IMG/VR virus record: IMGVR_UViG_3300043436_002386
Coordinates: 1-48,052 of that record
Direction: 5' to 3' (one strand)
Length of the DNA: 48,052 nucleotides
From: a virus
In this document: positions 2,215 through 35,423 of the stretch, one piece after another
How positions within the stretch are numbered: position 1 is the stretch's first letter
Layout: every line of letters begins with the position of its first letter
Notes under the pieces: generated by a model
Database searches by the model: none
Seen by the model: the letters and a program-made list of their open reading frames with translations, nothing else
What the model was told of the DNA's origin: nothing
Made by a program: the position numbers and the translations under genes

Positions 2215-2243
2215 ACTAATAATTAGCGATAAGTAACAGTATG
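2212..2243. promoter_or_regulatory. Compact divergent start region
   Basis: Only 26 nt separate the ATG of the minus-strand kinase-like gene (2214) from the ATG at 2241. The region is flanked by a perfect 6-bp inverted repeat, CATACT/AGTATG, that includes both start codons. I found no convincing -35/-10 pair and no Shine-Dalgarno sequence for either gene. The promoters for both directions must lie here or inside the opposing coding regions. Confidence 0.35.
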
Positions 2244-3056
2244 ATTAGAGGAATTGACGGTAAACCTTATATTAACTTAGATCCCTACATTGATGTAGAA
2301 GGATTTAAAAAATTACATCCTGAAATAGCACGAGGATTTGCATTAGCAAGAGATTATGCTAAAGAAGGAACGTGGATGTCTCCGGGGTTTGATTGGAAAG
2401 ATGCAAGTTATATAATTAACTGGAAACCGATATACAAAGCAGTCGAAGAATATCTTGCATTGCCCGAAAGTGATCCAATTAGACTTATAGGTGACAAGCT
2501 ATATTTTACCGATTTAAAAGATTTTAGAAATAGAAATATTTTTACTAGATATCTAAAAACAACCGTGGGTGCAAATGATCCGTACACTTATTACTTTTTG
2601 TGGGATCAAGGGGACTGGAATGAACGCAATGCTGAACGACAGAAAACAGAAGAATCTAAATATTTTCCAGGAGTTGTAAAATGGGTAGAAAATTTACAGC
2701 ATACAGGAATAATTGATAGAATTGGCCGGGTTATTTTCTTTCATTGTGACCATAACGGCAAAGCATTTGAACATAGAGATTTAGATGCACGCAACGGCGT
2801 GTTAACCGATCACCAATACACTTCTCACAATAACGAATTTATTCATATTCGATATAGAACAAAACGTGGTTTTTATATTTGGGATCCGGACACAGAAAAC
2901 AAACATTATATAAATGCTAATGCAGCATTTTGGAATGACCAAGATTGGCACGGCGGAGAAGAAAGCAAAGAAGTTGAATACGGGATGAGAATTGACTGTA
3001 AGTTTAGCAATTCATTTCGTAAACAATTGGGTATAAATCATTTGGAGCACTATTGA
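2241..3056 (+). CDS. 2OG-Fe(II) oxygenase-like protein
   Basis: The 271-residue product has a C-terminal double-stranded beta-helix signature. FFHCDHNGKAFEHRDLD supplies an HxD pair (HRD), then HIRYRTKRGFYIW, and then DWHGGEE gives the distal His. This HxD...H set binds Fe(II) in 2-oxoglutarate-dependent hydroxylases. The N-terminal 150 residues are not recognised and may form the substrate cap. It is the first gene of the rightward accessory operon. Its stop overlaps a TTG start for the next oxygenase (TTGA), so the two are probably coupled. Substrate unknown. Confidence 0.6.
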   Translation: MIRGIDGKPYINLDPYIDVEGFKKLHPEIARGFALARDYAKEGTWMSPGFDWKDASYIINWKPIYKAVEEYLALPESDPIRLIGDKLYFTDLKDFRNRNIFTRYLKTTVGANDPYTYYFLWDQGDWNERNAERQKTEESKYFPGVVKWVENLQHTGIIDRIGRVIFFHCDHNGKAFEHRDLDARNGVLTDHQYTSHNNEFIHIRYRTKRGFYIWDPDTENKHYINANAAFWNDQDWHGGEESKEVEYGMRIDCKFSNSFRKQLGINHLEHY

Positions 3057-3547
3057 TTTATCAAGGTAATTTTGCAAACTGGATCGATCCACAATGGAGA
3101 GAACTTGTCCTAAACACAGTAGGACAAGCAAGGCCCAGAGATTGGCCGCCTGAAACTGCCGCAGAAAGTGCAGAATATCAAAAAGCACAGGAAGCAGGAT
3201 ACGACTTAACTGCGGTAGATTGGTGGGTATATGAAAAGCACGATTTGAGCATTAATATAGATCCTCCGTGGTGTACTGGAAAAACCGATTGGTGGATCAC
3301 CAAGTTAATGCCTGGCCAATTTATGCCAATGCACACAGACCCATTTACACATTACAAAACTTGTAAGCGATATTGGGTTCCTCTACAAGACTTTTCGTCG
3401 GGGCACTTATTTGTATACGGAAATGAACTAATCAAAGATTATAAAGCCGGAGATGTGTTTGAGTACTATGATAGCAGAGATACGCACGGTGCAGCTAACA
3501 TAGGTCACACACCTAGAGTAATTTTACAGGTTACAGAATATGTCTAA
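3053..3547 (+). CDS. 2OG-Fe(II) oxygenase
   Basis: The 164-residue protein is a near-minimal oxygenase core. It contains KLMPGQFMPMHTDPF with the HxD iron ligands, RYWVPLQDFSSGHLFVYG strands, a KAGDVFEYY turn, DTHGAANIG carrying the distal His, and TPRVILQVTEY with the Arg that normally binds 2-oxoglutarate. The start is TTG at 3053 within a TTGA overlap with the preceding stop; no in-frame ATG lies nearby. It overlaps the following radical SAM gene by 8 nt. A similar oxygenase-then-radical-SAM pair recurs at 20852-22646, which hints at a functional partnership. Confidence 0.75.
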   Translation: MIYQGNFANWIDPQWRELVLNTVGQARPRDWPPETAAESAEYQKAQEAGYDLTAVDWWVYEKHDLSINIDPPWCTGKTDWWITKLMPGQFMPMHTDPFTHYKTCKRYWVPLQDFSSGHLFVYGNELIKDYKAGDVFEYYDSRDTHGAANIGHTPRVILQVTEYV

Positions 3548-4682
3548 TACATACTGCCCTTTGCCTTGGGTGCATTCTAGTTTACAAAATGGAAACACTA
3601 TACTTCCGTGTTGTGCATTTATGGATGCAGGCAAGTTTATGGATCAAGGAAAATTTGAAGATTTATTTTTTAGTAAAAAAATGAATCAAATTAGACAAGA
3701 TATGCTAGATGGAAAAAAAATAAAGGGCTGCGAGCAGTGCTACTTTCAGGAACAAAGCGGTATGGAAAGTATGAGACAACGATCTATTGGAAGGTTTGGC
3801 AATGTTACTGAAATAAATGTTAAAGACCTTAACATTGTGCTTGACAATGTATGTAACTTAAAATGTAGAATGTGCAGCAGTGGATATAGTCATCTCTGGT
3901 TCGACGAAGAAAAAGAATTGTATAGCACAACATTTTCGCCAGTGAAATATTTTCAAAATACATTTTATAGAGAAATAGACCTGTCATCTGTAGAGCATTA
4001 CGACATTACCGGCGGCGAACCTTTGTACAGTCCTCACTTTAAACCTTTCCTAAAAAAAATAAATCAAGAAGCAGACGTACAGAGTGTTTCAATAGATTTT
4101 TTTACAAATGGTACAATCAAGCCTGACAATGAAACTATAGACATTTTAAAAAACTTCAAATCGGTGTTTATAACAATTAGCATAGATGCAATAGGACCTT
4201 TGAATAATTTTATTAGAAAAAACAGCGACTTTAATGACATAATACAAAACTTAGATTTTTATCACACATTAAATGATAACTTTTCAATTAACATTTTAAC
4301 TACAGTAGGAATATATAATGCAATATTTGTAGAAGAAATTAAAAATTATTTTAAAGAATATTATCCCAAGTTTAGATGGAATTATGATCTAATACAATAT
4401 CCAGAGCATTTAAGCATACGAAATATGCCAATTGAATTAAAAAACATTTATAAAAAATATATTATTGACGAATCCATTTTATCTTACATGCATGACAATG
4501 CAGACGATTTATTTGGACATTTTTTAAATTTTCATAATGACTTAAATAAAATTAGAAATGAAACACTTGTGGGCAATGATATTTTACAAAAGTTTATTGA
4601 AACAAAAATATACAATGTTTCAAAAAGCGAAACAGAAACGTATTATAAAAATTTAATTAAGGAACTAACTGGCAATGGTTAA
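3540..4682 (+). CDS. Radical SAM protein with N-terminal twitch-like cysteine domain
   Basis: The 380-residue protein has the radical SAM motif C105-x3-C109-x2-C112 (CNLKCRMC) and DITGGEP on the next strand (GGEP, SAM amino group binding). Before the core lies a cysteine-rich region: C6 in CPLPW, paired C24-C25, and C64/C67 in KGCEQC. This CxLPW...CC...CxxC pattern matches the family known as twitch-domain-containing radical SAM proteins, where an auxiliary Fe-S site precedes the core. Paralogs are encoded at 15001, 16407 and 21522. Such enzymes use a 5'-deoxyadenosyl radical to modify unactivated carbons. It is flanked on both sides by 2OG-Fe oxygenase genes. The substrate is unknown. Confidence 0.85.
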   Translation: MSNTYCPLPWVHSSLQNGNTILPCCAFMDAGKFMDQGKFEDLFFSKKMNQIRQDMLDGKKIKGCEQCYFQEQSGMESMRQRSIGRFGNVTEINVKDLNIVLDNVCNLKCRMCSSGYSHLWFDEEKELYSTTFSPVKYFQNTFYREIDLSSVEHYDITGGEPLYSPHFKPFLKKINQEADVQSVSIDFFTNGTIKPDNETIDILKNFKSVFITISIDAIGPLNNFIRKNSDFNDIIQNLDFYHTLNDNFSINILTTVGIYNAIFVEEIKNYFKEYYPKFRWNYDLIQYPEHLSIRNMPIELKNIYKKYIIDESILSYMHDNADDLFGHFLNFHNDLNKIRNETLVGNDILQKFIETKIYNVSKSETETYYKNLIKELTGNG

Positions 4683-5178
4683 TTTAGAAGAATACAAAAC
4701 AGAAAACAACTTAAATTTGGTTATTGATATATTGTCAAAAAAACCTATTAATTTTATTGACACTGCTCCATTATTGCACATTAGTGATATTAAGTATGAA
4801 GAAGAAGCGTGTCGTTTTCGTGTATTAGAATTTTTTAATGTAGACGAACCAGTTTCGGACGAAGTTTTAGATTTGTTTATTGAAGAAAACAAAATAATAT
4901 CTAACATGAAAAATGTTGTTAGAGCAATGTATATGTCAATTGATTCACATACAGTTATTCCGGAACACACCGACGAAGAAGATCCTAATTTTAGAATTGT
5001 AAATGTTATACACTCAGGTTCGTCAAACATAGATGAGTGTGGCATGGTTATTAAAGATACAAAATACTCAATGATCAACGGGTTAGTAATTGGACTTGAT
5101 GCAAGTATTGAATTTCACAGAGTTTGGAATTATACAGATGATCCTTTAATTATCATGGTAGTTATTATAAAAAAATGA
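4675..5178 (+). CDS. Aspartyl/asparaginyl beta-hydroxylase-like 2OG oxygenase
   Basis: This 167-residue protein has VIPEHTDEEDPNFRIVNVI with HxD ligands. It also has ECGMVI and GLVIGLDASIEFHRVWN, where the distal His is followed by the WN pair typical of the aspartyl/asparaginyl beta-hydroxylase branch. The order of strands matches the C-terminal catalytic half of that family. It overlaps the preceding radical SAM gene by 8 nt and the next gene by 4 nt (ATGA). Small-molecule or peptide hydroxylation is likely; the substrate is not visible. Confidence 0.65.
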   Translation: MVNLEEYKTENNLNLVIDILSKKPINFIDTAPLLHISDIKYEEEACRFRVLEFFNVDEPVSDEVLDLFIEENKIISNMKNVVRAMYMSIDSHTVIPEHTDEEDPNFRIVNVIHSGSSNIDECGMVIKDTKYSMINGLVIGLDASIEFHRVWNYTDDPLIIMVVIIKK

Positions 5179-6380
5179 TTGGCGCAATTATTGTTTTAGA
5201 ACTATGGTTTTTATATGAGGATCAATACGATGACATCGATATTTTAGAAGCAACATATAATTTGGCAATGGCAGATATAAAAACTGCTATTAAAGAAAAA
5301 AACGCTGATACTATTATAGGAATGATGATTGCAGACGGATGGACATATAAGCACAACGATGAATGGTATAATTTTCTTGCAAGACTAGAAAAAAGTGCAA
5401 AAAATCTCGGAATTAAAAAGTTTTATCTTGTACCTGGACAATGTCATGAATATCAAGATGAGCTTAATAAAAGAAATTTAGACTTTGAAATAGTAGAATT
5501 TCATTGGGCTGTACAAGAAGTAAAAAATAATTATTTAAAAAATAACCGTATCGAGCAAATCAAACAGTGGAATTGCAATACTGAAAAATTTATGTTCATT
5601 GGTGGGTTTTCTGCAAGGCCTAAACGTATAGGAATGTTAAGCAAGTTATATGATGCGGGTTTACTAACTAACAATGCAATATGGAGTTTTTATCCTCCGT
5701 GGACAGCTGAAGATAAAAAGTGGTGTAGAGAATACTTACACAAATATTCGGATAAAGAATATAAAAGATTTTTAAAAACAGCAGATAGCTATCTTGATCC
5801 TATGTATAAACATAGTTTTAAGTATACCAGGATGTCGGGTAAAGAACTTAAAGACAACAACGAATTCAAAAAGGGTTGGTGGAAAAACGTAGGTTATATT
5901 AATAATTCTTTTTTTAATAAAACATCTGTAAGTATTGTAAATGAAGGCCCTGGAAATGATGAAAGATTTCTTACTGAAAAAACTTGGATACCTGTAATAA
6001 ATAATCATCCGTTTATACTAGTAGATAGTCCTACAAGATTTCGATATTGTAAAGATATTGGATTAAAAATGTTTGAAGAATATATGTTAATACCTGAATA
6101 CGGATTTATTGAAGATAACGAAAAACAAATGGATGCAGTTGTTCTAAATGTGCAACATTTTTTAAAAAATGCTAGTAAAAATGTTGAATTGATAAAAGCA
6201 GATATAGAACATAATAAAAATGTATTTTGTAATATTGCAGAACAAAATTTTAGATTAGTTACAGATTTAGAAAAAAACACAGGAACGGTCGGGGTATATA
6301 AATACCTTGCAAGTAGATATTTAGGAAACTATAATAGAATACCTAAATTATCGGAAATACCTACACACAAGGACAAATAA
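5175..6380 (+). CDS. Glycosyltransferase-like protein (exostosin/fucosyltransferase-type C-terminal motif)
   Basis: The 401-residue product has two parts. An N-terminal half contains FMFIGGFSARPKRIGML. A C-terminal half contains ERFLTEKTWIPVINNHPFI followed by RYCKDIGLKMFEEY. The TEKT..P...HPFI...LG.K.F pattern resembles the donor-binding region of exostosin- and GT10-like glycosyltransferases often found in marine phages. The ATG sits in an ATGA overlap with the upstream oxygenase. A TATAAATA string at 6297-6304 lies within the coding sequence and I do not treat it as a promoter. The sugar donor and acceptor cannot be predicted. Confidence 0.5.
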   Translation: MIGAIIVLELWFLYEDQYDDIDILEATYNLAMADIKTAIKEKNADTIIGMMIADGWTYKHNDEWYNFLARLEKSAKNLGIKKFYLVPGQCHEYQDELNKRNLDFEIVEFHWAVQEVKNNYLKNNRIEQIKQWNCNTEKFMFIGGFSARPKRIGMLSKLYDAGLLTNNAIWSFYPPWTAEDKKWCREYLHKYSDKEYKRFLKTADSYLDPMYKHSFKYTRMSGKELKDNNEFKKGWWKNVGYINNSFFNKTSVSIVNEGPGNDERFLTEKTWIPVINNHPFILVDSPTRFRYCKDIGLKMFEEYMLIPEYGFIEDNEKQMDAVVLNVQHFLKNASKNVELIKADIEHNKNVFCNIAEQNFRLVTDLEKNTGTVGVYKYLASRYLGNYNRIPKLSEIPTHKDK

Positions 6381-6982
6381 TGAAAAATTGGAATTATATC
6401 AATCTTCCTAATTGGAAAAAATTAAGAGATCAGATCATTGAATTTAAAAAAATTGCACCGATACCGGAAGAAATAAGTGAATGTTGGCAATGCTATTTTC
6501 TCGATACATTAAAAGAAGAACTACCCGACGTAGTCGAGGCATTTGCATCAATTGGATTAACTCCTCGTCAGATGATTTTATTTGATAATGCTCCGAACGA
6601 TATTAATGACAAGAACCATACAACAAAAAATGCAATTTTTGTTCACATAGATGCACGTGACGACGAAATGCCAGAAACTGACTTTGATCCAACCAATGCA
6701 ATAAATATTCCATTGGTAAATTGCGAAAATTCACACACATTATTTTTTGAAATCGACTTGCCAGAAGGCAGACATCCAGAAGACATTTATGTAATATATG
6801 ACGAATTTTATAAATGTGGCGGGCTGTACTTAGATCTTGTTAAAGAAATAGATAGATTTACACTCGATAAACCTGCAATACTGCGTGTTAATATTCCACA
6901 CGGAGTATATAATCCTACAAAACAACTACGAGAAGTTGCTACATTTCGTTTTTATGAAGATACGGATCATTTATTAAAATAA
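6380..6982 (+). CDS. 2OG-Fe(II) oxygenase-like cupin-fold protein
   Basis: The 200-residue protein carries FVHIDARDDE (HxD), then AINIPLVNCENSHTLFFEI, and near the C-terminus ILRVNIPHGVYNP with the distal His, followed by REVATFRF with a conserved Arg. The NIPLVNCENS strand and overall order are shared with the protein at 29718-30407, which has lost the HxD aspartate. It shares a 1-nt junction with the preceding gene (TAATG) and with the next gene, giving tight coupling into the cobalamin-type radical SAM gene. The fold call is moderate; the substrate is unknown. Confidence 0.55.
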   Translation: MKNWNYINLPNWKKLRDQIIEFKKIAPIPEEISECWQCYFLDTLKEELPDVVEAFASIGLTPRQMILFDNAPNDINDKNHTTKNAIFVHIDARDDEMPETDFDPTNAINIPLVNCENSHTLFFEIDLPEGRHPEDIYVIYDEFYKCGGLYLDLVKEIDRFTLDKPAILRVNIPHGVYNPTKQLREVATFRFYEDTDHLLK

Positions 6983-8847
6983 TGTTAAATGTTTATCTTT
7001 TCCAAGTAAACTATCAAGCAGGATTAGGAAAGTACATTAGTCAATGGCTTCCTTACAGTATTGCTTGTGTATGGGCTGCGGCTGAAGCTAACAGCGAAAT
7101 AAAAGAAAACTTTCAAGTAAACGAAGTCATCTTTAAAAGAGAACCGTTTGATGATATACTTGCTCGGTTAGATAATCCCAACCTGTGTATGTTTTCAAAT
7201 TATATTTGGAACGAAAATTATAACCAACTTATGGCCGAATGTATCAAAGCACAGTATCCAGATTGTATCATAGTGTTCGGTGGCCCACAAGTTAACGAAG
7301 ATGGATATGCATTTTTAGAAGAGAATACGTTTGTTGATGCAGTAGTAGTTAATGAAGGCGAAGTAAGCACACAAAGTCTGTTACTTGATATTTTACATAA
7401 CCGTCCATTAGAAAAAGTTTATAACAAACCACCTCGAGTAGATCTATTCAATAAACCGTCGCCTTACCTTGACAGTAAATTACTTGAAAAGATTATACAA
7501 GACAACCCGGGAACAAAGTGGGCAACTACACTTGAAACAAATAGGGGCTGTCCGTTTAAATGTAGTTTTTGTGATTGGGGAAGTTTAACACAAAGTAAGA
7601 TTACTAAATTTGATATCGACACAGTATTAAAAGAAATTGATTGGATTGCTAAACACGGTATTGATTATATCTATATTGCTGATGCTAACTTTGGAATTTT
7701 TTATGATAGAGACCGAGCAGTCATTGAGAGATTAATTAAAAATAAAGAAAACGTTGGAAATCCTCAAAGCGTAAACATCACTTGGTATAAAAACAGCAGT
7801 GAACAAGTATTAGAGCTTGCAATAATGCTTCACAATGCTAATTTAAACAGAGGGTTAACTTTAAGTGTTCAAAGTATGAATCCTGCCACTTTAGAAAATA
7901 TTCAAAGAAAAAACATGGAAAGTAGCAACCTAGAAAAAATGTATTCGATTTGCAACGACAACAATGTTGAATTTTATACAGAATTTATTCTAGGACTTCC
8001 ATATGAAACAAAAGACAGTTGGCGAAAAGGTATTTGCGATGCAGTCGAACTTGGATGTCATAGTGCATTAGAAATCTTTCCTACCGAGATATTGCGTAAC
8101 AGTGATTTAGCAAAACAAGTTAATGAACATGATATGGAAATATTTAAATTTGAAACAGTAGAACCCCGGCAGCTAACAGCAATACCGGAACGACACAACT
8201 TTGTAGTAAGCACAAAATATATGAGTAGAGATGACTTACTAGATAGCTGGATGTGGGGGTGGCTAATAATTAACTTTCATGCGTATGGCTGGACACAGAT
8301 GATTACTAGATTTGCTAATAAGTATGTTGGTATATCAATGCTTGAGTTATACGAAAACTTTTTTGAAAATTGTATTAAAAAAGATGAGCTAATGTGGAAT
8401 CTTTATAAAACACAAAGAAACGAATTAGAAACGTTCTTTTTTCATGATGCTAATGCAGCCAACATAATGCAAAATGATGATGTAGTTGTATATAGACATC
8501 AAATGGAATGGCAATACAATAGATCGCATGTGCAACAAAAAATTAATATTTGGGCTATAAGTTTATTAAGCAATAATATACAAAGCTCTACCTTACTTGA
8601 AAATTTATTATGTGTTAATAACTCGTTTACTGTAAATTATGAAAATCTTGATGATATTGTTCTAAATTTAAAATACAATATACCCGATTATGTTTTAAAA
8701 ACAAATGCTGAACTTGATAATACTGGACATACATATGTTGCAAAAAATTTAACAGACTGGGATAATTTAGAAGACTTTAAAGCAAAGTTGGCGTTACGAC
8801 ATAGATATGGATTTAGTAAAAGAAAAATAATAAAACATAATGCATAA
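6982..8847 (+). CDS. B12-binding-domain radical SAM protein
   Basis: The 621-residue protein has an N-terminal Rossmann-like region (about residues 1-140; CIIVFGGPQVNED, VVVNEGEVS) as in cobalamin-binding radical SAM enzymes. This is followed by ETNRGCPFKCSFCDWG with C190-x3-C194-x2-C197. IADANFGIF, ITWYKNSS and FYTEFILGLPYET are typical of the radical SAM barrel in this class. No DxHxxG motif is seen in the N-terminal domain, so any cobalamin may bind base-off or not at all. About 200 C-terminal residues are helical and unassigned. A homolog lies at 30328-32304. A downstream gene carries only the two ends of this architecture. Methyl transfer or ring rearrangement is typical of the class. 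Confidence 0.82.
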   Translation: MLNVYLFQVNYQAGLGKYISQWLPYSIACVWAAAEANSEIKENFQVNEVIFKREPFDDILARLDNPNLCMFSNYIWNENYNQLMAECIKAQYPDCIIVFGGPQVNEDGYAFLEENTFVDAVVVNEGEVSTQSLLLDILHNRPLEKVYNKPPRVDLFNKPSPYLDSKLLEKIIQDNPGTKWATTLETNRGCPFKCSFCDWGSLTQSKITKFDIDTVLKEIDWIAKHGIDYIYIADANFGIFYDRDRAVIERLIKNKENVGNPQSVNITWYKNSSEQVLELAIMLHNANLNRGLTLSVQSMNPATLENIQRKNMESSNLEKMYSICNDNNVEFYTEFILGLPYETKDSWRKGICDAVELGCHSALEIFPTEILRNSDLAKQVNEHDMEIFKFETVEPRQLTAIPERHNFVVSTKYMSRDDLLDSWMWGWLIINFHAYGWTQMITRFANKYVGISMLELYENFFENCIKKDELMWNLYKTQRNELETFFFHDANAANIMQNDDVVVYRHQMEWQYNRSHVQQKINIWAISLLSNNIQSSTLLENLLCVNNSFTVNYENLDDIVLNLKYNIPDYVLKTNAELDNTGHTYVAKNLTDWDNLEDFKAKLALRHRYGFSKRKIIKHNA

Positions 8848-9250
8848 CACATACCTTTTTTATCCTCAGTATCAAGAAGGAAAAGAACCATTTGTAACTC
8901 AGTGGTTGCCGTATAGTGTATCTACTGTGTGGGCATACGTTGACCAATTTAAAGAAATAAAAGAATATCTTTCAGATGTAGGTTACACAGATTTAATTAT
9001 TAAAAATATAATAAAATTTAATGAAAATTTTAATGTCAATCGAAGCTCAAAAGAAGCATATATAGTCGATTATGATTTTAATTTATATGAATTTATATTT
9101 TACAATAATGTCGTTTTAAATAAGAAAAAGACTAGCTATGTATATTCAAATAACATAAACTGGAATTCAGATGACGAATTTGATCATTTGGTATATATAC
9201 GACAACGTCAGGGATTTTTAACTAAAAACATCATACAAAAGCAGGAATAA
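8840..9250 (+). pseudogene. Internally deleted remnant of a B12-type radical SAM protein
   Basis: The 136-residue frame is open, but it combines an N-terminus like that of the upstream enzyme with a C-terminus like its tail. NTYLFYPQYQ...TQWLPYSVSTVWAY matches NVYLFQVNYQ...SQWLPYSIACVWAA. TSYVYSNNINW...RQRQGFLTKNII matches HTYVAKNLTDW...RHRYGFSKRKII. The approximately 480 residues between them, including the whole CxxxCxxC radical SAM core, are missing. It cannot be a radical SAM enzyme. It overlaps the upstream gene by 8 nt and ends 20 nt inside the convergent fibre gene. It is either a decay product or a retained small partner protein. Confidence 0.7.
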
Positions 9251-10820: not shown

Positions 10821-10837
10821 GATATCTCCTACGTCTC

Positions 10838-10845
10838 TATTTATG
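10838..10845 (-). promoter_or_regulatory. T4-type late promoter (CATAAATA)
   Basis: CATAAATA on the minus strand differs from the T4 late -10 consensus TATAAATA at one position. It sits 17 nt before the ATG at 10820, with AGGAGA between them. The downstream gene encodes a fibre-like structural protein, as expected for late expression. Confidence 0.65.
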
Positions 10846-10855
10846 AGGTAAGTAC

Positions 10856-10883
10856 TTGACAATTAATAATATTTGTATATAAT
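10856..10883 (+). promoter_or_regulatory. Consensus sigma70 promoter with -10 box 6 nt before ATG
   Basis: TTGACA (10856-10861), a 16-nt spacer and TATAAT (10878-10883) are both perfect hexamers. The ATG of the next gene is at 10890, so transcription would begin at or within a base of the start codon and give a leaderless message. No Shine-Dalgarno sequence fits between. It probably drives the long operon to 25482. Confidence 0.8.
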
Positions 10884-13710: not shown

Positions 13711-13921
13711 GTTAACATTGCGACAACTTCAAACAGAAAGCGCCAGAGCACTAAGTACTATTGAAGCTACAAACAACAACATATCACAATTTAACAAACT
13801 TGCACATCACAATAGTCATCTGTGGTATAAAGCTGTAATAGAGTGGTATATAATGCAGTACGGAGATTTGCCCAGCAAATCTGGACCAGGCAAGGATGTG
13901 AAGTTAATACACAATGTATGA
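13697..13921 (+). CDS. Small protein of unknown function
   Basis: This 74-residue frame starts with TTG at 13697, with AAAAGG about 9 nt upstream. It overlaps the methyltransferase gene by 14 nt and the next radical SAM gene by 8 nt, which supports translation. The N-terminal half is a likely helix (LRQLQTESARALSTIEATNN). The middle is aromatic (HLWYKAVIEWYIMQYG), followed by a flexible SKSGPGK tail. I recognise no family. Its place directly before a radical SAM gene makes a precursor peptide or adaptor possible, but nothing in the sequence proves this. Confidence 0.5.
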   Translation: MDIDKLTLRQLQTESARALSTIEATNNNISQFNKLAHHNSHLWYKAVIEWYIMQYGDLPSKSGPGKDVKLIHNV

Positions 13922-18468: not shown

Positions 18469-18506
18469 ACGATACGGCTAAAATATTAAATATGGAACAA
18501 CGCTAA
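18465..18506 (+). CDS. Possible 13-codon micro-ORF filling the gap between two operon genes
   Basis: ATG at 18465 overlaps the FkbM stop as ATGA. The frame encodes 13 residues (MNDTAKILNMEQR) and ends in TAA that shares one base with the next gene's ATG (TAATG at 18504-18508). Exact start/stop overlap at both ends suggests it relays ribosomes between the flanking genes. It could also be chance in dense AT-rich sequence. No product function is proposed. Confidence 0.3.
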   Translation: MNDTAKILNMEQR

Positions 18507-20849: not shown

Positions 20850-20851
20850 CT

Positions 20852-27761: not shown

Positions 27762-28418
27762 ATGCACATTACTCATGAAAATATAAAACATGCTATTATT
27801 AAAAGTCAGCACTGCCAACGAAATTGGGATTTATCAAAAGACATTCTAGCCGAAGACATGGATTTGCTTATACATGCAGTTACAAACTGCCCTAGTAAGC
27901 AGAACGTTGCTTACTATAAAGTGCATTTTATTACTAATAGAAACATTATTGAAAGTATCCACTCCTTTACAGATGGATTTACAGTAAATTTTGAAACTGG
28001 AGAAAGTCAAACTAATTCGCAAACATTGGCTAATCTTTTGATTGCGTTTGAACCTATAGATTATTTTAGTCAACCAGATAGTGATATATATCGTAGTGTT
28101 GAAGTTCAAAATTTTAAAGAAAAAACCGCATCTAGTGAAGATAAGTGGGTACTAGATAGAGATCAGCAAGTTGCCATCGGAATTGCAGCAGGATATGCCA
28201 ACCTTGTTTCATCAATACTAGGTTATTCGACAGGATGCTGTTCTTGTTTTGATATTGAAAATGTTTCACGTATATTAAACACTAAAAATGGAGTTAGTCT
28301 TCTAATGGGAGTAGGTGTTAAAGACAGCAATCGTCCTCGTAGAGAACATCATCTTGAACCTAATTTTGTATTTCCTACCAAAAAAAAGCAACCAATAGAA
28401 TTCAATTTGATAAATTAA
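27762..28418 (+). CDS. Nitroreductase family flavoprotein
   Basis: The 218-residue protein has CQRNWDLSKDI, then TNCPSKQNVAYYKVHFI (PSxQN, FMN phosphate contact). It then has SQTLANLLIAFEP, a long helix with IGIAAGYANLVSSILGYSTGCCS, and LLMGVGVKD. Order and size fit the nitroreductase superfamily. It has the strongest ribosome binding site in the area (AAGGAG, 8 nt spacing) and its own late promoter, so expression late in infection is expected, unlike the neighbouring modification genes. The substrate is not known; flavin-dependent reduction or dehydrogenation is typical. Confidence 0.75.
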   Translation: MHITHENIKHAIIKSQHCQRNWDLSKDILAEDMDLLIHAVTNCPSKQNVAYYKVHFITNRNIIESIHSFTDGFTVNFETGESQTNSQTLANLLIAFEPIDYFSQPDSDIYRSVEVQNFKEKTASSEDKWVLDRDQQVAIGIAAGYANLVSSILGYSTGCCSCFDIENVSRILNTKNGVSLLMGVGVKDSNRPRREHHLEPNFVFPTKKKQPIEFNLIN

Positions 28419-28424
28419 TATATA

Positions 28425-29075
28425 ATGAATACATATTTTTTTAATTTTCATAGAATATTCCATCTTGGGGATATAATAGAGTTGCGTCCAAAAATAAATT
28501 GTTCTAAATTACTAGATGATTTGGAAATTTATAAAGATAATTGGTTCCAATATAACCCAAGAAAAAAAATTAAAAGATATGGATTAAGTATTATTAACGA
28601 TACCGGTAAACTGATAAGTGGTCCGGATTTAGACAGCTTGCCGCAGTACAATAACGAACACGGTACAACATTGTCCGAAATTGACTTTAGACAGCCTACT
28701 CCTGTTTTTGATATCGATCAAGTCAAAAATTTACTTACGCCTATGAAAAGTTTTTTATTGCGAACTCATTTTTTAAAACTTCCGCCCGGTGGATACTTTC
28801 CTCCACATAGGGACGAAGCACTAAGAGAAGAATCTGGCAGAGTATTGTCTTTTAGAATCCTATCTCCTATTTATAATACAGATTTTCCTAATGTACAATT
28901 TATGCTTGATAATAATTTTGTGCATTTTAAGCAAGGAAGTTTATATGTTGTTAATACATTTAAATCTCATTCACTTGTTAATATGTCAACGGATGATAGT
29001 ATATGGTTAATAATTAATGCCGTTGTTTCAGATGACGGAGTTGATTTTGTTCACAGCAACATGAGTGTATCTTAA
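28425..29075 (+). CDS. 2OG-Fe(II) oxygenase, aspartyl/asparaginyl-hydroxylase-like
   Basis: The 216-residue protein has FLKLPPGGYFPPHRDEA with HxD ligands and FRILSPIYN and VQFMLDN strands. GSLYVVNTFKSHSLVNMS carries the distal His and is followed by a strand that ends the barrel. The layout matches the cupin-like hydroxylases encoded at 33447 and 32298. It is separated from the nitroreductase gene by 6 nt and shares one base with the next gene (TAATG), so it is likely co-expressed from the late promoter. Confidence 0.7.
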   Translation: MNTYFFNFHRIFHLGDIIELRPKINCSKLLDDLEIYKDNWFQYNPRKKIKRYGLSIINDTGKLISGPDLDSLPQYNNEHGTTLSEIDFRQPTPVFDIDQVKNLLTPMKSFLLRTHFLKLPPGGYFPPHRDEALREESGRVLSFRILSPIYNTDFPNVQFMLDNNFVHFKQGSLYVVNTFKSHSLVNMSTDDSIWLIINAVVSDDGVDFVHSNMSVS

Positions 29076-29716
29076 TGAATAGTTTAACTTATATAAATTT
29101 AACAACATTAAATTTGCCAGAAATTGATATATCAGAACTTAATAATGTAGAGTGGTTTTATGTAAACTTCCAAGGAGCGTTGATGTGTAGTTTATATAAT
29201 ACTAGAATTGAAGGAAATTGGATACAGGATTGGGTATTACCAGAAACTTCAAAAATTAGACAAACTATAGAAACAATTATATTTCCGTTTATAGGAGGAA
29301 AAGGTAACGTAACTGTTATAAAAACTGTACCCGGAGAAGAGTTAAATCATCATATAGACAGTGCAGCAAAGGAATATGGCACAGAACAGTATAAATTTAG
29401 ATGGGTCATTAAAGGAAGAACTGACACGCTGTTTTTCTTTGATGCCAACGAAGAAAAACATTTTATACCAAATATAGATACATATATTATTAACGGTGCT
29501 CATCCTCATGGAATGGAAAATAATGGAACCGATGATAAGTACACCTTATGTATAGGAGCACCATGGAAACCAAATGAACAGTTTTTAACAAATATAGAAT
29601 CGTTTCCAAAAAATTATTTGTCTTTGCCTAAATTAAAAAAAGAATGGACAGATCCTAGAATTGAAGAAAATAAAAAAAATGTTCTAGGCAGCACGTTTTT
29701 GAAAGTAAAGAATTAA
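29075..29716 (+). CDS. 2OG-Fe(II) oxygenase-like protein
   Basis: The 213-residue protein has VIKTVPGEELNHHIDSA (HxD as HID), then RWVIKGRTDTLFFF. IPNIDTYIINGAHPHGMENNG supplies the distal His and DDKYTLCIGAPW ends the sheet. Family-level fit to 2OG-Fe(II) hydroxylases is reasonable, though the Arg for 2-oxoglutarate is not obvious. It is the second of three oxygenase-type genes in a row and lies one base from its downstream neighbour. Confidence 0.6.
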   Translation: MNSLTYINLTTLNLPEIDISELNNVEWFYVNFQGALMCSLYNTRIEGNWIQDWVLPETSKIRQTIETIIFPFIGGKGNVTVIKTVPGEELNHHIDSAAKEYGTEQYKFRWVIKGRTDTLFFFDANEEKHFIPNIDTYIINGAHPHGMENNGTDDKYTLCIGAPWKPNEQFLTNIESFPKNYLSLPKLKKEWTDPRIEENKKNVLGSTFLKVKN

Positions 29717-29717
29717 A

Positions 29718-30407
29718 ATGTCTAAAGAAGAGTTTGTATTTGAAATAGTAAATGAAACTAAGTATCTGTGTGATGAATTTAGGAAAGCATATCTATATCT
29801 GTACGGAATAGATGTTGAAACATTACATAAAAATCATAATGGATTTTTTGTTGACAATGTTAAAGAACCGGACGAACACAATATTGTTTTTGATATCGAA
29901 AGTCTCGATAAAACTCAATTTCCAAATATTAATGCATTTAAAAATACATACATTGGAAAAAATTTAGGAAATGTTGCGTTTTTTACCGAAACTGATACAA
30001 GAAAAGGATATGAGTCGTCGAGACTTTCTTCATTAGACATGCACAAACACGTTACATCATCTGTTATAATAAGTTTTCCTTTAAGTAATTGCAATTATAA
30101 AACAGAAGTCGGATTTCACAAGTTAACTCCTGAAGAGGAATTGCAAACACATTTATGTGAAATTGGAGGCGTTCATTTAACCAATAATCGTTGGTATAAA
30201 GATCCTGATTTTGTTTATAGTAGCATAGATGATACTCCATATCTTTTAAGAGCCGGTGCATGGCACAGTGTGAAAAATTATTCAAACAGCAGACGTATAG
30301 TAAGTGGATGGTATTTTAAACCCGATGTTATTTGGGAAGATCTTCTTGAATTGATTCGTGAGGAAAGAAAAATCTCCCAACTCGATGAACAAATTCCTGC
30401 CCGTTAA
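29718..30407 (+). CDS. 2OG oxygenase-fold protein with altered iron-binding motif
   Basis: The 229-residue protein parallels the product at 6380-6982. SVIISFPLSNCNYKTEVGF corresponds to NAINIPLVNCENSHTLFF there, and LLRAGAWHSVKNYS corresponds to ILRVNIPHGVYNP. The position of the HxD motif reads MHKHV, with His in place of the Asp ligand. It may be an inactive or non-2OG relative, or use a three-His site. The 3' end overlaps the convergent radical SAM gene by 80 nt. Confidence 0.5.
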   Translation: MSKEEFVFEIVNETKYLCDEFRKAYLYLYGIDVETLHKNHNGFFVDNVKEPDEHNIVFDIESLDKTQFPNINAFKNTYIGKNLGNVAFFTETDTRKGYESSRLSSLDMHKHVTSSVIISFPLSNCNYKTEVGFHKLTPEEELQTHLCEIGGVHLTNNRWYKDPDFVYSSIDDTPYLLRAGAWHSVKNYSNSRRIVSGWYFKPDVIWEDLLELIREERKISQLDEQIPAR

Positions 30408-32304
30408 TTTTTCCTCGTTGATATGTAAATGCACTTTGTTTGTTAAAAATATAGGTGTGTCCTCCGGCTGCAAAATATAATGCATCTTTGATTGTTGGCT
30501 CGTATGCAGGAGTTCCTAATTTATATACATTAACATCCCAAACACACAATTCCTTGATTAATTTATTTTCTCTAAAAAATCTAAACCAATTATATTTTGT
30601 TTCAAATGATTTTTTAATAGTTACATTTTTATCTATTAAAATTTCTTTATTAAAATGTAAAACATCATCGAGCTCTTCGACATTAATGTTTTGATTTTTA
30701 ATTAATGACTCTCTAATAATATCATAAATTTCATCTATATTAGAAATTAAAAAAATCCAACTATTTGTGTATCTTTGGAATGGTGCATTTTTATTGTAGT
30801 CGTAATAAAATTCTACATTATCAGATTCTCTTATATCTAAAAACGAATCTAAAAACTTTTGTTTTAAATGAGTATTGCATATTTCTTTAAAAATATTTTC
30901 AAAAAACTCAATAAATCCTATTTGATAGCGAGATTTTAAATATCTCATTATGTACATAGTAATTTTTCCAAACCATAATACTTGCACCATATCTCGTATA
31001 CCACGAATGTATTTCATTTCTTCAAACGACATTGTGTTAGTTGAATTTATCAAATATGTATATTCTACTTCGTCATCATATTTACTTGGACCTTGAGGAA
31101 ATTTTGACCATTTCATTCCATATTTGTCTGATTGATGATCTAACGACATTTCGCTATTTTCTAATAATGCTAATTTGTACATATGTATTTCAAATGGATT
31201 GAAATCTAACAATCTTTCAATTCCATCTAAGTAGCTTTTTTTAGTCTCTAGAGGTAATCCCATAATAATTTCATTATAAAATGGTAATCCCCTAGCACTA
31301 AAATTATCTGCTATCCACTGCATATTACTTAATGTTTTAATATCTTCTCTTTTTATAACAGCATTAGTAGGTGGATGTAATGTTTGAAGACTAAAACTTG
31401 CCCCTGCACGATTTAAATCATGTTTTTCCATGATTTCTGCTATTTCTAAGACTCGTTCTTTGTTGTTTTTGGCATATGTAACATTTGTACTATGTAAAAC
31501 TGCGTCAGGTCTTTTTGTACGTTCTACAATATATTTTGATATTTCAACATCTCGACTAAGTATTCCAAAATTGGCATCAGCAATCATCATTTCTTGTACG
31601 TTATCAACCATCCAGTCAATTTCTTGTTTAATACGCTCGATAGAAAATTTACGAAGCTTTTCTTCTAGTCCCCAATCACAAAATGTACAACTATACGGAC
31701 ACCCTCTATTTGTTTCTAATACACCTTGTATTTCAATTTTATCTTTATATTTTTTTATTATATCGTTGTATATTCCCATTGCACAAGGACTAGGAATATC
31801 TAATTCAGTCTTATGATTTAAATATCTCTTTGTTGTTTGTATTTTTAAATTACTATTTTCGTAGTAAGTAAAACAATCGTCTAGATGCTCATATCCTAAT
31901 TCTTTTCTTATTATATTTTCTAATGCTATTTCACCTTCACTCCAAACATAATAGTCATATTGTGGATTTTCTTTTGAAAATTTAATTAATCTGTCGACAT
32001 TTTGAGGTACGTCATTACCACCGACAATAATTTTACAATTTGGATATTTTTCTTTAATAGCTTTAGTTAATTTATTTGTTCTATTTCTGTTCCACATGTA
32101 CAAAGTACATAAAACAATATCAGGGTCTTTAATATCGTCAAGCAGTTCTAACACTGTATCTTCGGCTCTAATACTAAACCCTGAGAGTTCTAAATTGTTA
32201 AAAATATCCGGTTTTGTACTTAAATATGCCCAGAGTGTTCCTATCGACACTGGAATAGTGGTAATCATAGCACTGCATATTTGTACTCCGTGTATTCTCA
32301 ACAT
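30328..32304 (-). CDS. B12-binding-domain radical SAM protein
   Basis: The 658-residue protein has an N-terminal Rossmann-like domain (KIIVGGNDVPQNVDR; YVWSEGEIALENI) and then LETNRGCPYSCTFCDWG with C202-x3-C206-x2-C209. IADANFGILSRD and FYNEIIMGLPLET are nearly identical in form to segments of the protein at 6982. The cobalamin-binding His motif is not visible. GGAG lies upstream of the ATG. It is the last gene of the leftward accessory operon and overlaps the oxygenase-fold gene on the opposite strand by 80 nt. Methylation or rearrangement chemistry is typical of the class. Confidence 0.83.
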   Translation of the reverse strand: MLRIHGVQICSAMITTIPVSIGTLWAYLSTKPDIFNNLELSGFSIRAEDTVLELLDDIKDPDIVLCTLYMWNRNRTNKLTKAIKEKYPNCKIIVGGNDVPQNVDRLIKFSKENPQYDYYVWSEGEIALENIIRKELGYEHLDDCFTYYENSNLKIQTTKRYLNHKTELDIPSPCAMGIYNDIIKKYKDKIEIQGVLETNRGCPYSCTFCDWGLEEKLRKFSIERIKQEIDWMVDNVQEMMIADANFGILSRDVEISKYIVERTKRPDAVLHSTNVTYAKNNKERVLEIAEIMEKHDLNRAGASFSLQTLHPPTNAVIKREDIKTLSNMQWIADNFSARGLPFYNEIIMGLPLETKKSYLDGIERLLDFNPFEIHMYKLALLENSEMSLDHQSDKYGMKWSKFPQGPSKYDDEVEYTYLINSTNTMSFEEMKYIRGIRDMVQVLWFGKITMYIMRYLKSRYQIGFIEFFENIFKEICNTHLKQKFLDSFLDIRESDNVEFYYDYNKNAPFQRYTNSWIFLISNIDEIYDIIRESLIKNQNINVEELDDVLHFNKEILIDKNVTIKKSFETKYNWFRFFRENKLIKELCVWDVNVYKLGTPAYEPTIKDALYFAAGGHTYIFNKQSAFTYQRGKINGQEFVHRVGRFFFPHESIQEDLPK

Positions 32305-32846
32305 TTAAAAAATTCTCCGTTTATATACTTATTATATACTTCCGAAAACGATTCTTTGATATCAAATTGTAGACTATACCTGGATTGATTTTTAGTAGTA
32401 ACTGCGTGCAAGTGTTTAGCATTAAAAACAAGCATCGAATCACTATAGTCAACACTAAAATAATAACTAGTATCTTCGTCTTTATAGAAATCGATAGGAC
32501 CGTATTCTTCGAATGTAAAAATAGGAAATAATATTGCAGTTGCCCGTTCTTTATCTCTGTGTATTGTAGGACCGTGATTAGCAGGAAATTTTACTAATTG
32601 TGTAGTTTTATAATCGAGATAATCAAAATTTAATTGCTCTCTAATTGTTTTTATAGGTTCCATGTCTTGGAGATCAGGATAGTATCTGTAACTTACTGCG
32701 GTAAAGTTGTTTATGGTGTATTTGTTTGTATCCCACCAGTGCGGAATATGTCCATCCCATCGATTTTCTCTATCTAAGTTATAGCATATATCTGCTAATT
32801 TCTGCCTATCATAATCGATTTTCACTTTAAAATAAATATCATTCAT
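32298..32846 (-). CDS. 2OG-Fe(II) oxygenase-like protein
   Basis: The 182-residue protein contains KFPANHGPTIHRDKERA (HxD as HRD), ILFPIFTFEEYGPIDFY, and DSMLVFNAKHLHAVTTKN with the distal His. SRYSLQFDIKESF includes the Arg expected to bind 2-oxoglutarate. It is compact like other phage oxygenases of this kind. It overlaps the GNAT gene by 8 nt and the radical SAM gene by 7 nt. Confidence 0.68.
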   Translation of the reverse strand: MNDIYFKVKIDYDRQKLADICYNLDRENRWDGHIPHWWDTNKYTINNFTAVSYRYYPDLQDMEPIKTIREQLNFDYLDYKTTQLVKFPANHGPTIHRDKERATAILFPIFTFEEYGPIDFYKDEDTSYYFSVDYSDSMLVFNAKHLHAVTTKNQSRYSLQFDIKESFSEVYNKYINGEFFKC

Positions 32847-33450
32847 TAAGTAATGTATCCTTTATGTTTCCGTTATGATTGTACCAAAAAGCACATTTTT
32901 TTGGCATCCAAACATAGTTTTCATTTTGTAAGTCAATATAGTACACGTATTGATAAAACTTATTATGTGGATTTTCATTTACTTTAAATAGCCATCTATA
33001 ATCCGTTTTAACTTGCTTATACCAACTAGACTCAAAATATTGTTTCGAATCAGGATCTGTCATACGTTTTTTATGTTGATATAACGCATTTAACGGCGTG
33101 TTATGTATATCGTGTGTCCAATAGAGTATTTTAAAATTCTTTTGTTTTGCCCATTCGATTTGATACGGTAACATTTTAAATCCGCAATGGCTATGACGAT
33201 ATTTTTTTAATATATGATAACGACAGATTCTAACAGCAATATCAGGATCATCTGTGTAATGACTTTTTTCAGCAACGCTTATACTTGCTAGTTCTGAATT
33301 AATATAAGCACACCAAATTTTACCATCAATGGCTTCGGGGTTGAATTTATCACTTTTTAAACTATCGTTGCCTTCTTTTATAGTCTGGCGTCTAAAAGAT
33401 TCTAATTCACCCCGATTGCTTTCGGCGTATTCTTCAATTACAACATTCAT
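32839..33450 (-). CDS. GNAT-like acyltransferase family protein
   Basis: The 203-residue protein has WCAYINSELASISVAEKS, then VRICRYHILKKYRHSHCGFKMLPYQIEWAK. KILYWTHDIHNTPLNALYQHKKRM completes the pattern. The YRhsxxG segment is a fair match to the acetyl-CoA loop (RxxGxG/A) of GNAT enzymes, and the following helix and NxxAxxxY-like region also fit. It is a distant relative of the protein at 929-1537. It lies between two 2OG oxygenase genes and shares a 4-nt overlap with the upstream one. N-acylation of an amino group made by the adjacent aminotransferase would be a logical step, but this is inference. Confidence 0.6.
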   Translation of the reverse strand: MNVVIEEYAESNRGELESFRRQTIKEGNDSLKSDKFNPEAIDGKIWCAYINSELASISVAEKSHYTDDPDIAVRICRYHILKKYRHSHCGFKMLPYQIEWAKQKNFKILYWTHDIHNTPLNALYQHKKRMTDPDSKQYFESSWYKQVKTDYRWLFKVNENPHNKFYQYVYYIDLQNENYVWMPKKCAFWYNHNGNIKDTLLNE

Positions 33451-34061
33451 AAATTTAATAAATCGTCTTGCCCGTCTAAACTAAACATAAGTGCTATCCT
33501 AGGTTTGTCGCTCATGTTTACTACTGCATGAGGATATGCAATATTTAGGAAATACGCATTACCTGGTTCGAGATTGTATGCTTCTAACTTGTCGTCACGT
33601 CTAAACAAGTTTACTACATTGCGATCAGTATATATAGGACAAATGCATCGAACAGCATAGGTAACATCATAATCTACGTGAAACGGTATTACTTTACCTG
33701 GAGCAAGTTTTGTTATGCGTACTCTACTAGCTTTTGCTTTTAGTTGAGTTACAACATGTTCGAAGTAACTATCGGTATATTCTTGTGTTGGAACATTATA
33801 CAAGTGTTCTTCTCGTCTGCGAAGTCTTTCTTTAATACTAGCTTCGTAAGGAAGTATTTCGCTAGGGGTTGTTAGATTTATTTGTTCAAAATTGTCATAT
33901 ACTTGTTCGACCAATTTCATGTGATTATCACACAGCATTGGATTTGCTGTACGCACATCAACAAATTTTTCAGCCAGTGCGTCACACTCTTTTTGTAAAC
34001 GTTCAAGATCAATTTCTAAATTGAAATTCATAATGGTAGGTAATTGATGTTTTTTTAACAT
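33447..34061 (-). CDS. 2OG-Fe(II) oxygenase, aspartyl/asparaginyl-hydroxylase-like
   Basis: The 204-residue protein has RITKLAPGKVIPFHVDYD (HxD as HVD), VRCICPIYTDRNVVNLF, and LEPGNAYFLNIAYPHAVVN with the distal His. SDKPRIALMFSLDG has the Arg. This is one of the clearest oxygenases in the window. AGGAG lies 7 nt before the ATG at 34061. It overlaps the aminotransferase gene by 7 nt. Confidence 0.75.
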   Translation of the reverse strand: MLKKHQLPTIMNFNLEIDLERLQKECDALAEKFVDVRTANPMLCDNHMKLVEQVYDNFEQINLTTPSEILPYEASIKERLRRREEHLYNVPTQEYTDSYFEHVVTQLKAKASRVRITKLAPGKVIPFHVDYDVTYAVRCICPIYTDRNVVNLFRRDDKLEAYNLEPGNAYFLNIAYPHAVVNMSDKPRIALMFSLDGQDDLLNL

Positions 34062-34819
34062 TTATAGACTCCTGCAAGACATATACGAGCTATGTCATCT
34101 TTTCTTCTAAATTTACTATAGTCACTATTTTTTGTAGTTGCTAACCAAACGCTATCGCTTGGTATAAAATTCATTTCTTCACATACTTTTCTTTGTTTAT
34201 TATACAATGACTTATAAACAAAGTCAATATCAAATTTACTTATGATACTTTCTGCTACTTGATGAGCAAAATAGTTATAATACTTTGCACTATGTATTAA
34301 TGCTTCTTGCTTTTCGTCCGGCGTTCTGCAAAAAAACCAACCTGTTCTAATATTACTAATACCAAAACTTTTACTTAAACTATAGAATACATACTGCACA
34401 TTATCGGGCAATGCAATTTTTTGAATTCTAGTACTTCCTACGTATGCTAGATCTAATGCAACCGGGCTATCGGTTTTTACAGTTTTAAAATTACCATCTA
34501 TAGCACTAGGTATACTTTGATATATTATAGTAGGGTGCATTCTTCCATTAATGTTATCTATCCATTGGTATTCACCCGGTTCTCTCCAAATATTATACTT
34601 GCTAGTTCCACTCCACCAGTTTAAACCTTCTGTAATTCCGTTCATAGGATACACATTAAAATTTGTCAAATCGACGATAGGTTTAAGCCAATCAATGATA
34701 TTTGTTTTATAGTGCATAACACTATCGTATGTAGGTGTTATACTACTAATGTGTACCTGAACTTCAGGTAAGATGTTAGTCCTTACTGCTAAACTTTGGT
34801 TTAATAAAAAATCTTTCAA
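34055..34819 (-). CDS. PLP-dependent aminotransferase-like protein (fold type I)
   Basis: The 254-residue product starts with TTG at 34819, with AGGA about 8 nt upstream, and overlaps the desaturase gene by 44 nt. It has YPMNGITEGLNWW, VALDLAYVGSTR with the PLP-pairing Asp, and FYSLSKSFGISNIRTGWFF with the SxSK Schiff-base lysine and following Arg. The ending DIARICLAGVY fits the C-terminal Arg segment. It is much shorter than usual class I aminotransferases (about 380-400), as is its relative at 19393. It may aminate a keto-sugar or keto acid. Confidence 0.7.
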   Translation of the reverse strand: MKDFLLNQSLAVRTNILPEVQVHISSITPTYDSVMHYKTNIIDWLKPIVDLTNFNVYPMNGITEGLNWWSGTSKYNIWREPGEYQWIDNINGRMHPTIIYQSIPSAIDGNFKTVKTDSPVALDLAYVGSTRIQKIALPDNVQYVFYSLSKSFGISNIRTGWFFCRTPDEKQEALIHSAKYYNYFAHQVAESIISKFDIDFVYKSLYNKQRKVCEEMNFIPSDSVWLATTKNSDYSKFRRKDDIARICLAGVYKC

Positions 34820-35423
34820 TAAGTATTCCTGCTATATCAAGTTTATGTAGTTTATACGATCTAGGATTGTCATGATGATACTTATGCCATCCTTCGCCGG
34901 GTGCTATAATATTTAAAATAGGTATGTCAGCCGGAGTACCAGATCTGTGTGCTAACCAATTGAGTAACCCAAATCCGACCCATGAAAGGATAAATGGCAT
35001 AAAAACAAAAATAATAAACAAATTTATACCTCCTAGCAGAGCTATAATACCGGCATACGTTAAATGTATATGTTTTCTGTAGCGATGAAAAAATACAATT
35101 CTTGGATTTTTTAACAAGTCTACAATATGCTTTTTTGGAATATATTCTACATGCCATCTGCTAGATAATACATTCCAAACTCCTTTATAAATAGGACTGT
35201 GAGGATCTTGTTCGGTATCACTTTTTACATGATGCATTCGGTGTACGCCTGCCCATGTTAATGCACTTCTTCCGCCGCAAATAAGCCCAAAAGATAGCAT
35301 GACTATTTCTAATGTCGACGAAGTTTCAAAACTACGATGTGTAAAATATCGATGATATCCTATAGAAATACCGATGAGAGCAGCAATATAATAAAATAAA
35401 TATCCGTATATAAATGTAATCAT
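34776..35423 (-). CDS. Fatty acid desaturase (acyl-CoA delta-9 type)
   Basis: The 215-residue membrane protein has the three histidine boxes of diiron desaturases: HRYFTH, HRMHH and HKYHH. Hydrophobic segments lie at the N-terminus (about 1-22), residues 38-52, and 120-160. The size is below the usual 280-330, with a short N-terminus, but all metal ligands are present. The enzyme introduces a double bond in an acyl chain at the membrane. It leads the leftward accessory operon from a promoter whose -10 box is 5 nt before the ATG, so it is probably translated without a leader. Confidence 0.85.
   Translation of the reverse strand: MITFIYGYLFYYIAALIGISIGYHRYFTHRSFETSSTLEIVMLSFGLICGGRSALTWAGVHRMHHVKSDTEQDPHSPIYKGVWNVLSSRWHVEYIPKKHIVDLLKNPRIVFFHRYRKHIHLTYAGIIALLGGINLFIIFVFMPFILSWVGFGLLNWLAHRSGTPADIPILNIIAPGEGWHKYHHDNPRSYKLHKLDIAGILIERFFIKPKFSSKD

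Follow-up and report, generated by a model that had tools for sequence, protein, structure and literature searches.

Why should a phage carry a dense island of radical S-adenosylmethionine (rSAM), oxygenase and transferase genes, and do such genes belong to one pathway? The question arises from IMG/VR virus record IMGVR_UViG_3300043436_002386, a linear fragment of 48,052 bases with 34% GC, analysed here at full length and referred to as the window. Its overlapping operons, which fill positions ~2.2-35.4 kb, were correctly described in an initial annotation of the bare letters as extending over ~33 kb, and were taken there for a biosynthetic or decoration pathway rather than scattered host-derived genes. 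Our comparison divides this proposal: it holds for a core, on account of fixed gene order, concordance of two core rSAM genes (B and C) and linkage in bacteria, and it fails for a periphery whose genes are swapped. The core looks like a real, partly conserved pathway inside a mosaic island. As judged from sequence, it comprises a putative glycosyltransferase (10890), a methyltransferase (12802) and the rSAM proteins A (13914), B (15001) and C (26623), with an exchanged periphery around them. The core genes, and a small gene lying among them, are as follows.

10890-12824, plus strand: core GT-A glycosyltransferase, C-terminal domain at 12120-12821 (predicted by AlphaFold2, AF2, and Foldseek)
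12802-13710, plus strand: core SAM-dependent methyltransferase of class I, with helical repeats at the N-terminus (predicted by AF2 and Foldseek)
13697-13921, plus strand: small protein of 74 amino acids between the methyltransferase and rSAM A, kept in most phage relatives
13914-14993, plus strand: core rSAM A (PF04055)
15001-16410, plus strand: core rSAM B, N-terminal twitch/SPASM type (NF033640, 413 bits, cut-off 170)
26623-27735, plus strand: core rSAM C (PF04055), better conserved than any other gene of the island

Relatives were collected by searching with rSAM C, which retrieved 341 viral contigs, the best 80 of them at 82-89% identity. Since they were found through rSAM C, its presence in all of them is uninformative by itself. 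The 22 long contigs taken from this set carried between 2 and 22 rSAM places each, and layout maps were drawn for eight. In these the order was fixed: glycosyltransferase, methyltransferase, 74-amino-acid protein and then rSAM A, B and C, each of the three followed by variable genes, with the qualification that the small gene and the glycosyltransferase of contig G015 were detected by tblastn only and that the glycosyltransferase of G001 is cut by the fetched stretch. The variable positions held differing twitch rSAMs, PP-loop proteins, aminotransferases, nitroreductases and oxygenases. Right of the rSAM C block, the contigs reaching so far continued with a fibre gene of the Mtd_N type and then conserved genes; in G005 another gene takes the place of the Mtd_N fibre. 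In the 275-kb contig G003, 12 of the 13 rSAMs called by motif were packed within 38 kb, so that their clustering is not due to chance.

Co-occurrence of rSAM B and C was scored on 11 long contigs picked through an unrelated gene, the one encoding the VWA protein at 40631-41911. Both genes were canonical on eight contigs, clearly divergent on two and absent from one (G272). Since B and C agree in state on all of these unbiased contigs, they behave as a unit, and the peripheral set is exchanged among relatives. This result bears on the reading that unrelated metabolic genes have piled up at a recombination hotspot and share no pathway. The periphery, which differs almost wholly among relatives, and two broken rSAM copies would fit such a pile-up; the fixed core, the B-C concordance and the co-linkage across phyla described below speak against it. 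We regard it as distinctly unlikely, and for the core it is already disfavoured. A pure mosaic without a core, tried as an explanation, was likewise dropped for the core in view of the B/C concordance. Independent occurrence in relatives was found for many genes of the island. Core genes were also counted on the downstream side of the glycosyltransferase (methyltransferase at 53/66 loci, A at 32/51, B at 18/39); these counts are lower bounds, because of identity cut-offs, truncated loci and the inclusion of more distant contigs, and were not relied on.

The core families were also found in bacteria. When species genomes of bacteria and archaea were scanned with rSAM C, 25 loci emerged, most of them in metagenome-assembled genomes (MAGs) of the predatory phylum Bdellovibrionota, where identity was 56-67%. 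Its distribution is patchy (15 of 241 Bdellovibrionota genomes). Some loci are embedded among ordinary chromosomal genes, apparently including those for seryl-tRNA or phenylalanyl-tRNA synthetase. Two (L120 and L126) look phage-like and could be phage contigs that were binned wrongly. The rSAM genes A, B and C were grouped together in many Bdellovibrionota loci, often with a glycosyltransferase or methyltransferase, and rSAM B was present in 16 of the 17 genomes with rSAM C. Glycosyltransferases that look like family 2 members recur near these cassettes. Divergences were correlated between A and B (r=0.80) and between A and C (r=0.74; n=15), as would be expected from co-inheritance or from shared species history alone. 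In one Bdellovibrionales cassette of rSAM and glycosyltransferase genes, a chromosomal gene (L134:11231-12157) encodes a protein 30% identical to a protein from the structural region of phage contig G002. In Bdellovibrio bacteriovorus, a cultured member of the Bdellovibrionota, proteins resembling phage tail fibres act on the prey (PMC10769870), and a link of the cassettes to such proteins is suggestive only. It seems doubtful that adhesive fibres are decorated by a dedicated system of glycosyltransferase, methyltransferase and rSAMs A, B and C with exchangeable tailoring enzymes, one that marine jumbo phages would have in common with some Bdellovibrionota. Two broader ideas were dropped: that bacterial cassettes generally adjoin fibre genes (L134 is the one case), and that they serve a predation trait of all Bdellovibrionota (rSAM C is found in just 15 of 241 genomes).

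What chemistry might the core perform? Structure prediction, which the initial annotation had proposed as a check, returned a GT-A fold and a class I methyltransferase fold for the two transferases. The C-terminal domain of the glycosyltransferase was modelled with a predicted local distance difference test (pLDDT) score of 90.5, and its top Foldseek matches were the GT-A enzymes RmlT, WrtF and SunS; peptide/protein glycosyltransferases (SunS, PGANT) are among the matches. The final D of its VDGD motif was invariant across 34 homologues. The predicted fold and the DxD-type motif together are those of a GT-A enzyme, the activity being putative. The N-terminal part (10890-12100) consists of degenerate tandem repeats of its own sequence, and protein length varies widely among relatives. 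The methyltransferase (pLDDT 94.7) matched class I methyltransferases in Foldseek and has an invariant NTS.EH motif. Invariant cysteines were found in rSAM A across phage and bacterial homologues (C18, C22, C25; C255, C274, C275, C343, C347), in rSAM C across the aligned members (C44/C48/C51, C309/C331/C352/C357) and, as equally invariant sets that include the bacterial homologues, in rSAM B. Loss of catalytic residues, which had been named as an argument against a pathway, was not the rule: they are retained in nearly all rSAMs. PDB sequence searches with A, B and C gave weak generic rSAM matches only and no close solved relative. To our knowledge, the majority of rSAM reactions are still unassigned.

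SPASM/twitch-like domains occur in several rSAMs of the island, which are also weakly similar to peptide maturases. This would suit enzymes that mature a ribosomally synthesized and post-translationally modified peptide (RiPP) or that produce a small molecule able to diffuse. A precursor scan of the Bdellovibrionota cassettes, however, found no conserved short open reading frame (ORF) near A, B or C. The sole recurrent short ORF is that of the 74-amino-acid protein, which is conserved over its full length in phages (67-77% identity) and has beyond them a single 50% copy in a Chloroflexi MAG; an export or immunity gene was not recognised either. RiPP maturation is unlikely because no precursor peptide gene was found, and we hold peptide or small-molecule synthesis to be improbable.

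Among the substrates first envisaged (sugar, lipid or peptide), a sugar or glycan is the best supported. A glycan-type product is suggested by the core GT-A enzyme, by a peripheral FkbM methyltransferase and by sugar-nucleotide enzymes in relatives, whose genes further to the left include an NDP-sugar epimerase and a member of the UDP-glucose/GDP-mannose dehydrogenase family. The genes at the island edges bear on its destination.

9231-10862, minus strand: fibre-like protein, head-to-head with the glycosyltransferase gene (repeats recognised by eye)
35500-37554, minus strand: subtilase-family protein at the right edge (PF00082)
37577-39094, minus strand: tail-fibre protein forming the right boundary of the island (Mtd_N, PF18454)

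That tail-fibre genes surround the island, as initially annotated, stood for the Mtd_N protein; the left-hand protein (9231-10862) resembles a fibre solely in its repeats and matched no family significantly, and PHROGs gave the fibre-like proteins no name. Homologues of the latter occupy the same position in relatives and were detectable at 36 of the 67 loci with enough sequence upstream of the glycosyltransferase, and in many relatives this gene is head-to-head with a fibre-like gene. Contigs G002 and G003 have the island flanked by a gene of PHROG tail-fibre/structural type and by the Mtd_N fibre gene. The frequent head-to-head arrangement and the position of the G002 and G003 islands between fibre-type genes lead us to favour fibre decoration. 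Our preferred reading, which we hold tentatively, is a glycan-type modification by the island that acts most likely on the phage's own fibres. We infer a glycan product, fibres as its target and a benefit to the phage: the core would build or attach a constant sugar-based unit, the rSAMs might act on carbons of this unit that are otherwise unreactive, by oxidation, rearrangement or methylation, and the periphery would vary its chemistry phage by phage. The likeliest destination would be the fibres whose genes flank the island, and their decoration could alter adsorption or shield the virion.

The main alternative, which appears somewhat unlikely, is that the island remodels the envelope polysaccharide of the infected host (O-antigen or similar), for example excluding competing phages. 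Adjacency to fibre genes would then reflect a recombination hotspot for host-recognition functions. The FkbM methyltransferase and GNAT of the window and the NDP-sugar enzymes of its relatives, which are typical of surface polysaccharide loci, agree with envelope remodelling, and core-bearing bacteria could apply the core to their own envelope. For pelagimyophages, whose host recognition cluster includes rSAM cassettes as well as glycosyltransferases, such an interpretation has been published (PMC7029224). However, a flippase, a polymerase or a lipid-linked sugar transferase was not recognised in the window, and fibre-like genes recurrently adjoin the core glycosyltransferase.

Several observations weigh against fibre decoration by a conserved glycan pathway. 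A close characterised homologue was found for no core enzyme, so that no reaction can be assigned to the core, and the TM-scores of the glycosyltransferase against GT-A enzymes are low (0.33-0.46). The core is not indivisible, since contig G272 keeps the glycosyltransferase and methyltransferase without rSAM B and C. Across the nine phages, the divergences of A, B and C showed no correlation, a pattern that reassortment by recombination would produce. Co-location with fibre genes is not proof of a fibre substrate, because recombination exchanges islands at such sites. Finally, L134 is the only bacterial cassette with a structural-protein homologue alongside, at 30% identity, and this structural-type protein has a single weak, unannotated phage match.

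In which phages does the island occur? Megablast of the window against 50,697 phage records gave zero matches. The right-end genes found their best matches in Pseudomonas phage PA5oct and related phages, at 54% identity for the flap endonuclease and 50% for the ATPase, with several small neighbour genes also shared. Because the right-end genes match PA5oct best, the window appears to be a fragment from an uncultivated lineage of large (jumbo) marine phages, distant kin of PA5oct; this kinship with the Arenbergviridae is expressed as gene-by-gene identities only. The PA5oct stretch adjoining the shared genes has no rSAM island, a QueE-like gene alone being found there. Phages elsewhere use glycosyltransferases, rSAMs and QueC-like enzymes for DNA hypermodification, and the QueE-like gene, which lies outside the island in PA5oct and relatives, could be cited for an island that hypermodifies phage DNA. 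Among seven long relatives, however, two have one gene of the thymidylate synthase family (PF00303) and five have none, so that an additional PF00303 hydroxymethyl-pyrimidine synthase is lacking from these possibly incomplete contigs. As the core also occurs on bacterial chromosomes and the island sits among fibre genes, hypermodification of DNA is very improbable.

We then compared the window with known systems. Campylobacter phages CP220 and CPt10 are large, T4-like and endowed with 11-12 rSAM genes, including an interchangeable five-rSAM cluster (PMC2853527). Common to them and the window are the many rSAMs, part of which lie in a swappable cluster adjoining proteins with nucleotide-sugar-transferase domains. 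In contrast, window rSAMs match those of CP220 at just 22-33% over partial length, B and C have no close match there, and the glycine amidinotransferase of the CP220 rSAM module was not seen in the window; members of the amidinotransferase cluster do occur in relatives G002, G004 and G012 (the G004 homologue at 35%). Pelagimyophages have a hypervariable host recognition cluster with tail fibres, glycosyltransferases and rSAM cassettes (PMC7029224). The window shares with it a hypervariable region combined with tail fibres and glycosyltransferases; the landmark genes VrlC and gp14 did not turn up in the window, itself a fragment. The cultivated SAR11 phage Pelagibacter phage Mosig EXVC030M has a comparable island (L117, 4702-21306), with 67% identity to the window for the Asp/Arg hydroxylase, 49% for GNAT, 43% for the aminotransferase and 37% for the desaturase. 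It differs in being a 141-kb phage of the Kyanoviridae and in lacking a close relative of rSAM B or C; its island offers a practical model system. A marine T4-like contig, TARA_ERS488813_N000010, has 12 rSAM genes (PMC5332604); it is treated there under iron-sulphur proteins, in a passage that describes no core or island, and the contig is set apart from the window by description only. The Bdellovibrionota cassettes comprise the same core families in compact loci, with rSAM C at 56-67%, and differ in being chromosomal, patchy and rarely next to a recognisable fibre gene.

No description of the core of A, B, C, glycosyltransferase and methyltransferase or of its Bdellovibrionota counterpart was found in the literature searched, which did not extend to most subscription papers. 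The conserved core and its bacterial counterpart appear new, whereas rSAM-rich phage islands are already known. Such phage genes are usually catalogued singly as auxiliary metabolic genes. With a constant three-rSAM core present in phages and on the chromosomes of unrelated bacteria, what was a puzzling inventory becomes a defined unit that can be tested. This core may reveal a new chemical modification of virion or cell surfaces, and provides a compact set for reconstitution.

The full rSAM complement of the window was then established. The PF04055 profile recognised 11 places. Ten rSAM genes are intact and have the CX3CX2C motif (3540, 6982, 13914, 15001, 16407, 18506, 21522, 23285/23306, 26623, 30328); nine pass the PF04055 cut-off, and the one at 15001 stays under it with 413 bits to NF033640. 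This family of twitch domain-containing rSAMs (cut-off 170 bits) was also matched by 3540, 16407 and 21522. The B12-type gene 6982, at 190 bits, failed NF033712, the KedN5-family B12 rSAM methyltransferases (cut-off 700 bits). The initial annotation had recognised the cluster and had counted eleven rSAM genes plus one remnant, which we correct to ten intact and two broken (24493-25482 and 8840-9250). Its estimate of at least four architectures was upheld: N-terminal twitch/SPASM, C-terminal SPASM-like, B12-binding-like (6982, 30328) and short STM4011-like (18506). Peripheral rSAM genes outside the left arm are as follows.

16407-17780, plus strand: twitch rSAM (NF033640, 355 bits)
18506-19402, plus strand: STM4011-like rSAM (PF04055; under the NCBIfam cut-off)
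21522-22646, plus strand: twitch rSAM (NF033640, 244 bits)
23285-24496, plus strand: rSAM (PF04055)
24493-25482, plus strand: broken rSAM, with a single in-frame TAG in an otherwise open frame
30328-32304, minus strand: B12-binding-type rSAM (PF04055; B12-binding domain sub-threshold)

Recoding of the TAG in 24493-25482 was considered and is disfavoured: TAG also terminates three other called ORFs, which makes gene breakage or a mistake in the assembly the likelier cause. The ORF at 8840-9250 corresponds to the neighbouring gene 6982 with both terminal ends kept and the middle deleted. An S-adenosylmethionine synthetase is encoded at 46621-47709 of the window and could act as supplier for the rSAM and methyltransferase enzymes.

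The remaining periphery includes the following genes.

2241-9250, plus strand: left arm, with putative 2-oxoglutarate (2OG) oxygenases at 2241, 3053, 4675 and 6380, a twitch rSAM at 3540, an uncharacterised gene at 5175, the B12-type rSAM at 6982 and its copy at 8840-9250
17761-18468, plus strand: FkbM-type methyltransferase (PF05050)
19393-20322, plus strand: aminotransferase-like protein dependent on pyridoxal phosphate (PLP), with an SLSKAL motif (Aminotran_1_2, E=0.13)
20319-20849, plus strand: methyltransferase-like protein (PF08242, below cut-off)
20822-21520, plus strand: putative 2OG oxygenase (HxD motif only)
22647-23333, plus strand: PP-loop, QueC-like protein (PF06508 below cut-off; SGGADS loop and terminal cysteine cluster)
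25565-26626, plus strand: nitroreductase-like protein (PF00881 under its cut-off, E=0.003), immediately upstream of rSAM C
27762-28418, plus strand: nitroreductase (PF00881, barely above cut-off)
28425-30407, plus strand: three oxygenase-like genes (28425, 29075 and 29718, the last without HxD)
32298-34061, minus strand: putative 2OG oxygenase (32298), GNAT (32839, PF00583) and Asp/Arg hydroxylase (33447, PF05118)
34055-35423, minus strand: aminotransferase-like (34055) and fatty-acid-desaturase-like (34776, PF00487) proteins

Several of these labels, as first assigned, held in part. About ten 2OG oxygenases had been proposed; Pfam firmly supports two (4675 and 33447, Asp_Arg_Hydrox), seven others are putative at the level of the HxD motif, and 29718 lacks it. 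Three methyltransferases had been named, of which 17761 passes Pfam, 12802 is supported by its predicted fold and 20319 remains below cut-off. Both aminotransferases (19393, 34055) have the PLP-lysine motif with sub-threshold Aminotran_1_2 matches, and one of two nitroreductase-like proteins (27762) exceeds the PF00881 cut-off, 25565 falling below it. The desaturase label of 34776 passed Pfam. A role in ornithine lipids, which the combination of desaturase, GNAT and Asp/Arg hydroxylase might suggest, was considered and not adopted. Of the glycosyltransferase-like proteins, 10890 was borne out by the fold of its C-terminal domain, and the label of 5175 was not confirmed. Homologues of the aminotransferase 19393 adjoin bacterial cassettes, and the QueC-like protein recurs in relatives. 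The non-core rSAMs, 2OG enzymes, aminotransferases, nitroreductases and the desaturase were freely swapped among relatives, an exchange from which the periphery can be read as a mosaic. In contig G001 (273516-277521), a saccharopine-dehydrogenase-family gene and an AMP-binding enzyme stand in place of the desaturase operon of the window.

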